A DNA stretch of 64,000 nt from the NCBI GenBank assembly GCA_003222895.1, contig QHXI01000079.1, positions 1-64,000 of the forward strand. Reading direction: 5' to 3'. The notes below the pieces were generated by a model. The model had not been told where the DNA came from, ran no database searches, and was given only the letters and a program-made list of their open reading frames with translations. Position 1 is the stretch's first letter; each line of letters begins with the position of its first letter. Origin of the DNA: Acidobacteriota bacterium (GTDB taxonomy: Bacteria; Acidobacteriota; Blastocatellia; Pyrinomonadales; Pyrinomonadaceae). Both the position numbers and the translations under genes were made by a program. Positions 10,559-35,478 of this stretch are shown here, piece after piece.

Positions 10559-10650
10559 GTCAGAACCGCCTGCGGTAGCGGGCGGTTAGTCTTGCTTTTT
10601 AGAGCGACGCAGATAAAGAAAAACCACCCGCTGCCGCAGGTGGTTCTGAC
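10559..10650. repeat. REP/BIME-like inverted doublet
   Basis: Two 29-base arms, 10559-10587 and 10622-10650, are inverted copies of each other with three mismatches, separated by 34 bases. Each arm is itself a near-perfect hairpin of about ten base pairs (for the left arm AACCGCCTGC pairs with GCGGGCGGTT around a GGTA loop). A head sequence GTCAGAACC sits outside each stem. Two self-complementary units in opposite orientation is the architecture of REP doublets (BIMEs), which are mobilised by RAYT-type Y1 transposases in other bacteria. A partial copy (tagcgggcggt) recurs near 13545-13555. Confidence 0.65.
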
Positions 10651-10654
10651 AAAC

Positions 10655-10883
10655 CCTTAAAAAGGCTTTCGGGCTGCTGATAAGTTCCCGAGAGGCTCCC
10701 CCTAGCCTCGTTCAGGCCGACTTATCAGCAGCCCTGCCTTTTCGCTCTTCGGCTGATATCGGCAACTCCGTTCCCCCGAAAGAGCCGCCATGCTCAGATG
10801 TAGGGCACCTCCCCCAAAGCGCCTTCCAACTTTTCAACCTAAGAGCCTGACCCGATTAACTACCCTTCTGCCTTTTTGTCGTA
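10655..10883 (-). ncRNA. Candidate sigma-54-dependent small RNA with intrinsic terminator
   Basis: Reading the minus strand from the -24/-12 element at 10909-10893, a transcript of about 225 bases would start near 10882 and end near 10656. It has no convincing ORF. Its 3' end is a long nested hairpin: GGGCTGCTGATAAGT (10734-10720) pairs perfectly with 10685-10671. The flanking AAAAGGC (10742-10736) pairs with GCCTTTT just before the final T-run, and an inner GAGGCT/AGCCTC stem caps the structure. A second hairpin pairs 10785-10776 with 10752-10744 (GCTCTTTCGG with CCGAAGAGC, one bulge). I do not recognise it as 6S, SRP, tmRNA or RNase P RNA. Confidence 0.6.
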
Positions 10884-10892
10884 TCTGGCCTG

Positions 10893-10909
10893 AGCAATGG
10901 TTGTGCCAA
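10893..10909 (-). promoter_or_regulatory. Sigma-54 (RpoN) -24/-12 promoter
   Basis: On the minus strand the sequence TTGGCACAACCATTGCT matches the sigma-54 consensus (TGGCAC, then five bases, then TTGCW) at every conserved position, with the required GG-N10-GC spacing. It faces the structured region 10882-10656 and glyQS beyond it. Sigma-54 promoters need an enhancer-binding activator; one with an intact GAFTGA loop is encoded at 34060-35478. I see no obvious enhancer dyad upstream (10980-11070). Confidence 0.7.
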
Positions 10910-11097
10910 GAGGGATCAGTCAACGTGCAAATCAATGGTTACTCAAATTTCTGAGGAAATCGCTCATCAAGATGCGAACCGAAAGGCGATGCAAACGCGT
11001 CTGGCAGATTGTTGTAAAAACGTTGTAGTCGATTGGTACAGCGTGCCGCGCGATTCGCATCAAAATCGCTCGGGTTACAAACGGCGAACGCTGCAGA

Positions 11098-31357: not shown

Positions 31358-31521
31358 CTGACCTTGAACTTAACACAAACGTCGAAACGATTGCCGTCGC
31401 CCGGCTGAGACTCGTTCAAGAGATGCCGGATTAGCACTTGACCGCGGGCGATTTTCCGCGTAGAAACTTTCAAGCGCCCTTAGTTTTAGGATTTTTGCTG
31501 CCCCGGTGAAATTCCGATTTA

Positions 31522-33954
31522 ATGGCCGCAAGTGTTGACCTAAAAACCGCTCCGCCCTCACCAAACGAAAGCGCCAGCACGCTGAGCCTCGCTGTCGACC
31601 GGGTTCTTCCGCGCGTTGCGATGTTCGATTCCAAAAAATTCAGAATTGCATCGTCGGTTACATTTGTCGCAAGCGTCGCCCTGCTCATCCTTGGCATTTC
31701 CGTTCTGATCGGATGGGCCTTCGACATCGGCATACTTAAGAGGCTCGCGCCTGGACTCGTGTCGATGAAGCCGAACACGGCGGTCTGCTTCATCTTATCT
31801 GGCGCATCGCTCTGGCTGTTGAAAGCTGAGGGAGTATCCGGAGCAAAGCTTCGTCTGGGCCAGGCGCTCGCAGCGATCGTCATCGTCATCGGCGCGCTCA
31901 CGATCATCGAATACTTCTCTGGCGCGAATTTGCGTCTCGACCAACTGTTATTTACAGAGGCAAAGTCACCGAGCGTGCTCTTTCCGGGCAGGATGGCTTT
32001 TGCTACGGCGTTGAATTTCGTGGTGCTGGGAAGCGCCTTGGTTTTCATTAACGAGAAAAGCAAGGGTAAAAATCTCACGGATGTTCTGGCTGGTTCAGGC
32101 GCTGCGCTCACACTACTCGCTCTGCTCTCCTATTTGTACAAGGTCGATGCTCTATACCGTGTAGTTCCCTTTGCCACGATCGCCTTGCACACGATCATCG
32201 GTCTCCTAATCTTGTGTGCCGGAATTCTTTTTGCCCGGGCCAAAGATGGCTTCGTCGCTGTCTTTCTGAGCGACACGTCCGGAGGAATTGTCGCGCGCCG
32301 ATTACTGCCGGTTGCGATTCTGATTCCACCAATGCTCGGCTGGTTTCGCCTAATGGGCGAGCGTCGAGGATTTTATGAGCCGGCATTCGGGATAGCGATT
32401 GTCGCCACTTCTCTGATCATCCTTTTGGTAGCGGTAATCGGACGGACGGCCCGCGTGCTTGATTCCGCGGAAGTTGTGCGACGTCGCGCTGACGATCGAA
32501 CGCGCCTCGTGGTTGAAGCTACTCCCAGCGCGATAGTAATGGTCAATGAACAAGGGCGAATCGCTTTGGTCAACAGCCAAACGGAAAGACTGTTTGGTTA
32601 TTCTCGATCGGAATTGCTCGACCAACCGATCGAGAAGCTGGTACCCGATCGCTATGCTTCGCTTCACGCCGATCATCGAGGCTCATTTTTGCGAGAGCCG
32701 ACTACGCGCGCGATGGGCGCCGGTCGCGACTTGTATGGCCTCCGAAAGGACGGAAGCGAAGTTCCGATCGAGATTGGCCTGAATCCGCTTCGAACCGACG
32801 AAGGTAATTTCGTTCTGGCCGATATAATCGACATCACCAAGCGAAAAGAGACCGAAGCCACGCTGCGGCAAAGCGAGGAGCGCGCGCAGCGTGGCAAGCG
32901 AATCTGGGAGAAGACCTTTGACGCGATTGGCGAAGGGATCCTGGTCCACGACAGCGAAATGCGGATCGTGCGATGCAACGCGCAGGCGGCCGAAATGCTG
33001 AATATGAAACCCGCGGAAGTGATTGGCCGCAAGTTCGCCGATGCTTTTGCGCTCTTATTTGGCAAACAGGCCGCTGATTATTACTTGGACGAAGGCCGCG
33101 AAGTGTTATCGTCATTTGAAGCGCAGACCGCCGCAGGACAGCGATATATGGTTTCGATCTTTCCGATCAAAAATCCCGACGGCGAATCAGTAAGCGTGGT
33201 GATGTGGAACGACGTTACCACTCTGGCTGAAGTCCAGGAACAATTGGGACGCTCGCGCCGATTGGCGAGCGTGGGCCAATTGGCCGCCGGTGTCGCGCAC
33301 GAAGTAAATAATCCGCTGGCTGCAATCACGACCTGCGCTGAAGCAGTGATGCGCGACATCAATCATAGCGAGACGGCAAAAGAACTCGCCGAAAGCCGGC
33401 AATGGAATTACTACCTCGGCGAAATTGTCCGGCAGTCGTTGCGTTGCAAGGAGATCACTCGCGGCCTCCTGGATCTCACTCGTCAGCGACAAGCGCGCCG
33501 CGTCTTAATCGACATAAATTCCCTGGTGAAGGAATGCGCGAAGATTGGAGTTCAGCGCACGGATTCGAAGGCAGAATTCCAAATGCATCTGGACGAGAAC
33601 ATCGGCGAAGTGGCAACTGATGCCGAGATGTTGCGCCAAATTCTCGACAATCTGATCGCAAATGCTATCGACGCGCTGAACGAACAACCCGGGACGGTCG
33701 CCGTCTCGACGATCCGCGAAGGGGATCGCATCGGAATCGAAATCGCTGATTCAGGTCAGGGCATTCCGACTGATCTGCTTTCGAGGATATTCGATCCATT
33801 TTTCAGCACGAAGGGGCCGGGAAAGGGTTATGGACTTGGTCTCGCGATTTGTCTGTCGCTGGCTGAATCGCTCGGCGGCAGCATCACCGTCGAGACAAAA
33901 GAAAGCAAAGGCAGCCGCTTTCGAGTCTGGATTCCGCGGCGCGCGCCCGACTAA
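31522..33954 (+). CDS. Membrane PAS-domain sensor histidine kinase, NtrB-like
   Basis: 810 residues. After ~35 soluble residues there are about eight hydrophobic segments to residue ~315. A PAS domain follows (VEATPSAIVMVNEQGRIALV), then a PAC-like segment (RKDGSEVPIEIGLNP), a second PAS (TFDAIGEGILVHDSEM), the HisKA H-box AAGVAHEVNNPL with phospho-acceptor His593, and a HATPase domain with DNLIANAIDAL, DSGQGIP and GYGLGLAI. All catalytic boxes are present. It should phosphorylate the NtrC-type regulator encoded next. The signal is unknown; the membrane part may sense lipid or envelope state. No clear ribosome-binding site; an alternative ATG is at 31621. Confidence 0.92.
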   Translation: MAASVDLKTAPPSPNESASTLSLAVDRVLPRVAMFDSKKFRIASSVTFVASVALLILGISVLIGWAFDIGILKRLAPGLVSMKPNTAVCFILSGASLWLLKAEGVSGAKLRLGQALAAIVIVIGALTIIEYFSGANLRLDQLLFTEAKSPSVLFPGRMAFATALNFVVLGSALVFINEKSKGKNLTDVLAGSGAALTLLALLSYLYKVDALYRVVPFATIALHTIIGLLILCAGILFARAKDGFVAVFLSDTSGGIVARRLLPVAILIPPMLGWFRLMGERRGFYEPAFGIAIVATSLIILLVAVIGRTARVLDSAEVVRRRADDRTRLVVEATPSAIVMVNEQGRIALVNSQTERLFGYSRSELLDQPIEKLVPDRYASLHADHRGSFLREPTTRAMGAGRDLYGLRKDGSEVPIEIGLNPLRTDEGNFVLADIIDITKRKETEATLRQSEERAQRGKRIWEKTFDAIGEGILVHDSEMRIVRCNAQAAEMLNMKPAEVIGRKFADAFALLFGKQAADYYLDEGREVLSSFEAQTAAGQRYMVSIFPIKNPDGESVSVVMWNDVTTLAEVQEQLGRSRRLASVGQLAAGVAHEVNNPLAAITTCAEAVMRDINHSETAKELAESRQWNYYLGEIVRQSLRCKEITRGLLDLTRQRQARRVLIDINSLVKECAKIGVQRTDSKAEFQMHLDENIGEVATDAEMLRQILDNLIANAIDALNEQPGTVAVSTIREGDRIGIEIADSGQGIPTDLLSRIFDPFFSTKGPGKGYGLGLAICLSLAESLGGSITVETKESKGSRFRVWIPRRAPD

Positions 33955-33959
33955 CGCTA

Positions 33960-34050
33960 TTTTGAATTGCGATTTTAGAATTCCGATTTGGCCGTTTATC
34001 CTGCCCGTTCAGCGAATTGCGCAATCGCAAATCGGCATTCAAAAATCAGA
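33960..34050. repeat. Dispersed AT-rich inverted repeat, copy 1
   Basis: TTTTGAATTGCGATTT at the left and, in inverted orientation, CAATCGCAAATCGGCATTC with AAAAATC at the right, enclosing about 25 bases. It fills the junction between the kinase and regulator genes. A second copy with the same TTTTTGAATTGCGAT and ATCGCAAATC boxes lies at 60585-60664, also at a junction inside an operon. Confidence 0.6.
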
Positions 34051-34059
34051 AATGGAATC

Positions 34060-35478
34060 ATGAGTAGAAAAACTCGCGTGTTAGTCGTAGACGACGATAG
34101 CCTGCTGCGTAAGCTCGTCACTGAACAACTTTCGCGATCTGACTTCGAAGCCGATCCCGCCGCCAGCGCCAGAGACGCTTTAGCTCGGCTGCGCGACGCG
34201 GATTACGACGTCGTGTTGCTGGACATCATGATGCCTGATATGTCGGGTCTGGAAACTCTGCGCGAGATTCGCAAGCTCGAAGATCCACCCGAAGTCGTCA
34301 TGCTCACTGCCGATACCTCGCTGGCAACCGGCATCGAAGCGATGCGCCACGGCGCTTACGATTATCTGACAAAGCCGGCGACCCTCGACGAGATGGAAGC
34401 CGTGCTGCACAAAGCAGATGAAAAGCGACGGCTGGTCAAACAGAATGCTTCGCTCCGATCCGTCGCGCGACCGACTGGCGGCGGTGATGAAGTTCTGCCC
34501 ATCTTTTGCGAGAACCCGCTGATGGCTGCCGTGGTAGCCCAGGCCGAAACGGCCGCGCGCACCGATTCAACCGTACTGCTGACCGGCGAATCAGGATCGG
34601 GCAAAGACGTGCTGGCGCGACACATTCACTCGCAAAGCTCGCGTCGTGCGGCTCCGATTATCACTGTCAACTGTGGGGCGCTTCCCGAGTCACTTTTCGA
34701 ATCAGAATTCTTTGGGCATGAGCGCGGAGCGTTCACCGGCGCCAGCTCGCTGCGGCGAGGTTTGTTGGAAGCCGCCGATGGCTCGACTTTGTTTCTTGAT
34801 GAGATCGGGGACCTGCCGCTGTTGATGCAGGTGAAACTCTTGCATTTTCTCGAGCAGGGACGATTTCGGCGCGTAGGATCGACCCGCGATCAACATGCGG
34901 ACGTGCGCATCATCGCCGCCACTAATCGCGATCTTTCTTCGGATGTCGAACGACAACGTTTCCGCGCAGATCTGTTTTATCGTCTTAACGTCGTGTCGCT
35001 GCATGTGCCCGCACTGCGTGATCGGCCCGAAGATATTACTCGGCTGGTCAATCACTTTCTCGAGATTTATCGCGAACGCTTCAATCGTCCGAACCTGGAT
35101 GTTTCAGCCGAAGGTCGCGAGCTCTTGCGGAATTATTCATGGCCGGGAAATGTGAGAGAGCTGCGCAATTGTTTGGAGCGAGCAGCGGCAATCTCGACTG
35201 ACGATACGATCGGCGCCGAACAACTTCCGTTCGTGAGCCTCTCGAGCAGCACCACTGCGGCAACTGTTGGGCCGTCCGCAGCAGTACCCGCGCCGGTAAC
35301 TGCGCCCGTGACGCTGGAAGAACTCGAACACGAGCACATCCTGCACGTGCTTAACGAGAGCGATGGAAATCGCGAGCGCGCCGCCGCCATCCTCGGTATT
35401 TCTTCACGCACCTTGTATCGAAAGCTTCGCGAATATGAATCTCAGTCGAACTCATCTGGTCTGGCCACTGAAGGTTGA
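34060..35478 (+). CDS. NtrC-family response regulator, sigma-54 activator
   Basis: 472 residues. The start at 34060 is used because the receiver domain begins there (SRKTRVLVVDDD); the in-frame extension is repeat-derived. Receiver with phospho-acceptor Asp55 (VVLLDIMMPDMSG), then an AAA+ domain: Walker A GESGSGKD (176-183), the sigma-54-contacting loop GAFTGA (223-228), Walker B FLDEIGDL and the R-finger region. It ends with a Fis-type helix-turn-helix (NRERAAAILGISSRTLYRKL). It binds enhancer sites and drives ATP-dependent open-complex formation by RpoN polymerase. It is the partner of the upstream kinase. A sigma-54 promoter is present in this window at 10893-10909. Confidence 0.95.
   Translation: MSRKTRVLVVDDDSLLRKLVTEQLSRSDFEADPAASARDALARLRDADYDVVLLDIMMPDMSGLETLREIRKLEDPPEVVMLTADTSLATGIEAMRHGAYDYLTKPATLDEMEAVLHKADEKRRLVKQNASLRSVARPTGGGDEVLPIFCENPLMAAVVAQAETAARTDSTVLLTGESGSGKDVLARHIHSQSSRRAAPIITVNCGALPESLFESEFFGHERGAFTGASSLRRGLLEAADGSTLFLDEIGDLPLLMQVKLLHFLEQGRFRRVGSTRDQHADVRIIAATNRDLSSDVERQRFRADLFYRLNVVSLHVPALRDRPEDITRLVNHFLEIYRERFNRPNLDVSAEGRELLRNYSWPGNVRELRNCLERAAAISTDDTIGAEQLPFVSLSSSTTAATVGPSAAVPAPVTAPVTLEELEHEHILHVLNESDGNRERAAAILGISSRTLYRKLREYESQSNSSGLATEG

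Follow-up and report, generated by a model that had tools for sequence, protein, structure and literature searches.

Stand-alone small RNAs (sRNAs) that depend on sigma-54 and carry enhancer sites are known from the Gammaproteobacteria, namely Qrr1-5, GlmY/GlmZ and CrcZ, and the usual arrangement of sites for an enhancer-binding protein is a pair of dyads, in phase with each other, about 100-170 bp 5' of the sigma-54 promoter. The sites recognised by CsrA, the protein that is sponged by CsrB/CsrC and RsmX/Y/Z, take the form of an ANGGAN hexaloop. From the Acidobacteria, the Rfam families Acido-1 and Acido-Lenti-1 have been reported. The Pxr sRNA of Myxococcus xanthus, an organism without Hfq, forms about three stem-loops, and its predicted sigma-54 promoter is preceded by an enhancer region; it is limited to one bacterial group, its conservation is highest in a hairpin loop, and its NtrC-like regulator, PxrR, is encoded next to it (PMC5684412). 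Transcription of GsrN of Caulobacter depends on the ECF general stress sigma factor, and its C-rich loop pairs with the G-rich leader of katG (PMC5869019).

The locus described here lies in a 64,000-nt stretch of DNA, all of which was analysed and which is called the window below. It is probably a stand-alone gene whose product is a trans-acting sRNA of about 224 nt, induced through sigma-54 and an activator, with five-G (G5) loops that bind a partner. Judged from the genomes compared, the RNA is a new sRNA family restricted to the Pyrinomonadaceae (soil bacteria of the Acidobacteriota), while the class to which it belongs, sigma-54-dependent sRNA, is already known. The initial annotation had proposed a sigma-54-driven structured non-coding RNA at this place, and this was largely right: the box and the stems were conserved across genera, the stems covaried, and there was no conserved ORF. 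It had not recognised the RNA, and the Rfam check gave the same answer. A search of Rfam 15 with the window and ten homologous loci produced no match at the gathering threshold; Acido-1 and Acido-Lenti-1 were not matched at the gathering score, nor did they appear for the locus among matches with E up to 10. No paper on this RNA was found in the open literature. The features of the unit were as follows:

11056-11072, minus strand: upstream activating element 1, CGAGCGATTTTGATGCG (consensus CGARCGATTWTNRTKCG), conserved within two genera (alignments of 7-8 genomes)
11025-11039, minus strand: upstream activating element 2, GTACCAATCGACTAC (consensus GTAYNNAANNNNTAC), lying 131 nt 5' of the -24 box
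10893-10908, minus strand: sigma-54 -24/-12 promoter, TGGCAC-N5-TTGCT, present in all aligned homologues
10659-10882, minus strand: sRNA of about 224 nt, supported by covariance-model matches and covariation, ends inferred without RNA-seq
10844-10855, minus strand: 5' box TCGGGTCAGGCT, nearly unchanged across the window's genus and in most other genera
10838-10847, minus strand: 5' strand of the core closing helices, pairing with 10744-10753 in a multibranch core
10744-10753, minus strand: 3' strand of the core closing helices, pairing with 10838-10847
10804-10823, minus strand: hairpin 1, exposed GGGGGA at 10815-10810, double changes in 7/11 stem pairs and a nearly fixed loop
10761-10789, minus strand: hairpin 2, exposed GGGGGA at 10777-10772, double changes in 5/7 stem pairs
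10664-10742, minus strand: hairpin 3, the long terminator hairpin, apical GGGGGA at 10702-10697, followed by the U-run at 10663-10659

Promoter and upstream elements

The sequence TGGCACAACCATTGCT at 10908-10893 (minus strand) matched the consensus of the sigma-54 -24/-12 element perfectly, and it was the only site in the 64 kb window that fitted TGGCAY-N5-TTGCW with at most one mismatch. The full -24/-12 element facing the RNA, as first annotated, was confirmed; in every aligned homologue the element sat 45-64 nt 5' of the modelled RNA core, with its GG and TTG invariant or nearly so.

When the DNA upstream was aligned genus by genus, elements 1 and 2 stood out as two enhancer-like dyads, which are 33 nt apart in the window. 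Of 43 homologues, 38 had element 2 with no more than one mismatch, where shuffled sequences would give 2.35. The best matches to the two elements were located independently before their spacing was measured, and that of element 1 lay 32-34 nt upstream of that of element 2 in 25 of the 43 homologues (about 0.5 by chance). Some of the sequences counted had also served to derive the motifs; the second copies of the RNA (L052-L055) and most genera had no part in defining them. On this comparative evidence both the promoter and the tandem upstream elements can be regarded as established. The initial annotation had promoter, body and terminator as a compact unit; all three are present, and the unit is larger than it supposed, with the two dyads at 11056-11072 and 11025-11039 having been missed.

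A sigma-54 unit should have a conserved GG-N10-GC with the consensus TGGCAY-N5-TTGC, tandem in-phase upstream sites, and rpoN and enhancer-binding proteins in the same genome, and each of these was met. RpoN was found in 58 of the 60 relatives, and there were 25-42 PF00158 matches (enhancer-binding proteins) per genome. When the 119 genomes were searched for element 2 together with the sigma-54 box, the pattern matched almost only RNA loci, the exceptions being four or five isolated matches, mainly in non-carriers. From this near confinement to RNA loci, promoter and activator look dedicated to the RNA; for the activator, which is known only through its putative sites, no more can be said than that it seems so.

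No activator gene adjoining the RNA was found in its neighbourhood. At 31510-35475 of the window a PAS histidine kinase adjoins an NtrC-type sigma-54 activator. This regulator (33979-35475, 24 kb from the RNA) was considered as the activator and rejected because genus g9, in which both the RNA and the same enhancer occur, gave no close homologue of it (E <= 1e-120), while a homologue exists in some non-carriers.

Structure, strand and distribution of the RNA

The start of the RNA (about 10882) was inferred as 12 nt after the GC of the -12 element and its end (about 10659) from the terminator U-run. The RNA from 10884 to 10655 folded with -98.6 kcal/mol (z = -5.2), and none of 200 dinucleotide shuffles was as stable. 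The nested terminator hairpin of the initial annotation was recovered in all its parts, with a perfect 15-bp stem (10720-10734/10671-10685), its extension by AAAAGGC/GCCTTTT and the T-run each where they had been placed. A second, 9-bp stem that it had put at 10744-10752/10776-10785 could not be upheld: this is an alternative pairing, 87% paired with few double changes, and in the comparative data its strands fall in different helices, 10744-10753 pairing with 10838-10847 and 10776-10785 lying in a hairpin of its own.

In an alignment of 38 sequences over the whole transcript, 94% of the cells were paired, against only 38-52% in slid-partner controls, and double changes were seen in 35 of 43 pairs; none of 500 shuffles reached the alignment on any of five covariation measures. 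A core alignment of 29 copies agreed on the covariation, with the caveat that it was fitted to its own model. Closing helices 1 and 2 were about 95% paired with double changes in 6 of 7 pairs, and the outer stem of hairpin 3 was 97% paired with double changes in 10 of 10. Among 155 G-U cells, 96% were paired on the minus strand and 77% on the complement, and the opposite strand was rejected as the RNA strand on these figures. The comparison of homologues may therefore be said to settle the gene, its strand and its structure.

No conserved ORF was found; the sense ORFs differed in frame, length and sequence between homologues, which bears out the early reading that no convincing ORF crosses the region. 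The window copy does hold a 41-aa ORF, from which a small protein gene could be proposed, or the hairpin and the promoter could each be there by chance. The frame and length of the ORF are not conserved, and covariation and promoter are conserved across 18 genera, so this explanation is considered refuted, short of ribosome profiling.

Most copies showed the motif GGGGGA in each of the three hairpin loops, and the loops were the most conserved part of the aligned RNAs: the stems vary by compensation while the loops stay constant. The Pyrinomonas copy has lost the G5 from hairpin 1, and the copy of one other genome (G002) keeps G5A only in hairpin 2. Since some copies are without one G5 loop, the three loops are not strictly needed.

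Three further observations concern the fold. One genome (G020; L018/L048) has a copy from which hairpin 2 is cleanly missing and in which promoter, hairpin 1 and terminator are kept. At four loci (L041, L042, L044, L048) a TGACCC-like stretch past the U-run can pair with GGGTCA of the 5' box, which is not general in the family. Repeated AGGGTA-type motifs were present in the single-stranded leader 5' of the 5' box in several genera (e.g. L026, L031, L036).

The region was recovered from 15 of 60 relatives by BLAST, from 26 of the 60 by a first covariance model and, by a second one built from 29 copies, from 47 of 119 Pyrinomonadaceae genomes in 18 of 29 genera, these 119 genomes being also the whole order as sampled. 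The carriers include Pyrinomonas methylaliphatogenes K22 and several Pyrinomonadaceae MAGs. A draw of 247 genomes across the phylum returned only members of the family and one marginal score. The marginal matches outside the family, L051 (E 0.002) and L057 (E 0.01), were not counted as members; L051 has neither the promoter nor the G5 loops. Within positive genera nearly every genome was positive, and the plasmid records held no match to the RNA. This distribution fits vertical descent in one clade, as far as the presence of homologues can tell.

In most genera the RNA lay between an L-asparaginase II (PF06089) or class-V aminotransferase gene upstream and a convergent DUF6599 gene downstream. 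The downstream gene of the window, which had been called glyQS, is in fact a single-chain class II glycyl-tRNA synthetase (GlyRS; PF00587 + PF03129), and GlyRS follows the RNA only in the window's genus. Four genomes (G011, G019, G023, G030) carried a second copy at an unrelated place, next to genes for an MFS transporter, a histidine kinase, an NHL-repeat protein and a sigma factor, and these copies came with element 2 and a promoter-like element of their own.

A leader, attenuator or riboswitch for the GlyRS gene would agree with the position of the RNA upstream of that gene in the window and in five of six further members of its genus (the locus of the sixth is cut off too early to judge). 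A T-box or glyS leader, however, should keep a fixed place upstream of an aminoacyl-tRNA synthetase gene, which was not met: elsewhere the downstream gene is the convergent DUF6599 gene, second copies stand at other places, a terminator with a U-run closes the unit, and there was no T-box or other Rfam match. Synteny thus refutes the leader. Second copies elsewhere and a changing downstream gene point to a free-standing gene, and the stand-alone position appears secure across the genera compared.

Between the RNA terminator and GlyRS (10562-10648) the window has two REP-like inverted palindromes (CAGAACCGCCTGCGG... and ...CCGCAGGTGGTTCTG), with four more partial copies in the genome (86-90% over 30-35 bases). 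Weak Rfam matches to miRNAs came from these REP-like palindromes, which lie outside the RNA, and were discarded.

Possible partners of the G5A loops

With its own promoter and an intrinsic terminator, structured, non-coding and without a fixed downstream gene, the RNA has the gene organisation that is asked of a trans-acting bacterial sRNA. RNAs of this class pair with mRNAs in trans, usually with the help of Hfq. Its expression, its dependence on RpoN and an activator, its action in trans and the role of its loops are inferred here without transcript data. In the proposed mechanism, an enhancer-binding protein would sit on the two dyads, which are spaced by 33 nt and lie about 100-170 nt 5' of the promoter, and only then would sigma-54 RNA polymerase transcribe the gene. 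The RNA would fold into a multibranch core with two hairpins and a terminator hairpin, and all three hairpins would show the same single-stranded G5A motif, which would be the working part, as several copies of one binding site.

For an RNA like CsrB or RsmZ, multiple hairpin loops with GGA and CsrA in the same genome are expected; the first was met and the second was not. CsrA (PF02599) was absent from all carriers among the 60 relatives except Pyrinomonas, whose copy of the RNA is divergent, and the same search did detect it in E. coli, B. subtilis and T. maritima. With CsrA missing from the carriers other than Pyrinomonas, the RNA is ruled out as a CsrA sponge. A sponge that follows the CsrB/RsmZ plan, with GGA in several loops, but serves some other RNA-binding protein is left open and is rather unlikely. 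It is supported by the repetition of one GGA-containing loop in several hairpins, with its flanks conserved, and is set back by the missing CsrA and by the fact that no alternative protein was found.

Samples of 400 kb from each of two carrier genomes (0.8 Mb) showed no enrichment of C5 and related motifs (TCCCCC etc.) around start codons; the non-carrier sample was a poor control, having fewer C-runs everywhere. Broad regulation of mRNAs through C5 sites at translation starts is therefore unlikely, and the same result favours a protein sponge over mRNA seeds. A classical Hfq-type sRNA, whose G5 loops would pair with C-rich stretches of a few mRNAs as the mirror of sRNAs with C-rich loops, nevertheless stays possible without being favoured. 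It would account for the intrinsic terminator with its U-tail and the repeated exposed seeds, Hfq was present (110 of the 119 family genomes), and pairing of C-rich sRNA loops with G-rich mRNA leaders is established, e.g. GsrN-katG (PMC5869019); the lack of enrichment of TCCCCC and its relatives at the translation starts of carriers speaks against it.

The C-terminal tail of Hfq was longer in carriers (stop-to-stop frames mostly about 100-120 aa) than in non-carriers (about 76-93 aa; L249-L264); shared ancestry may explain this, and one non-carrier (G033) also has the long form.

With CsrA mostly absent and C5 sites not enriched, titration of a partner by the G5A loops, be it an RNA rich in C or some RNA-binding protein that is not CsrA, was held likeliest, as an inference to which slightly less than an even chance is given. 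Loops acting as pairing seeds for a few mRNAs ranked second, again by inference and with weaker support. A multivalent G5A-loop decoy with a dedicated enhancer-binding protein, controlling, in bacteria without CsrA, either a partner RNA rich in C or an RNA-binding protein that would be new, is a more speculative version and is put forward as doubtful; if true, such a circuit would resemble the Csr system but use a different receptor.

Comparison with known systems

Acidobacteriota are among the most abundant soil bacteria, and regulatory RNA in them is almost undocumented, searches of the open literature having given no paper on an sRNA of this family. The locus offers a complete testable unit of activator sites, promoter, RNA and terminator in 18 genera, including the cultured P. 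methylaliphatogenes K22. The triple G5A design is unexplained in bacteria that are mostly without CsrA, and it remains to be asked what binds a five-G loop shown up to three times.

In its layout the new RNA resembles Pxr in the number of stem-loops, the sigma-54 promoter with enhancer, the restriction to one group and the hairpin loop as the most conserved part, whereas it belongs to another phylum, has no adjoining activator gene and occurs where Hfq is present. The likeness is one of analogy; the two RNAs were not aligned and there is no evidence of homology. As in CsrB/CsrC and RsmX/Y/Z, there are several hairpins, each with a GGA-containing loop, but the carriers other than Pyrinomonas lack CsrA, the G5A loop is closed by U-A, and Rfam gave no match. 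The RNA is, like Qrr1-5, GlmY/GlmZ and CrcZ, a stand-alone sRNA behind a sigma-54 promoter and enhancer sites, and differs from them in architecture and phylum, with no Rfam match for the window or the ten loci. As in GsrN, the part that presumably does the work is a homopolymeric loop, single-stranded and conserved, the loop being G-rich rather than C-rich and the promoter one for sigma-54 rather than for an ECF sigma factor.
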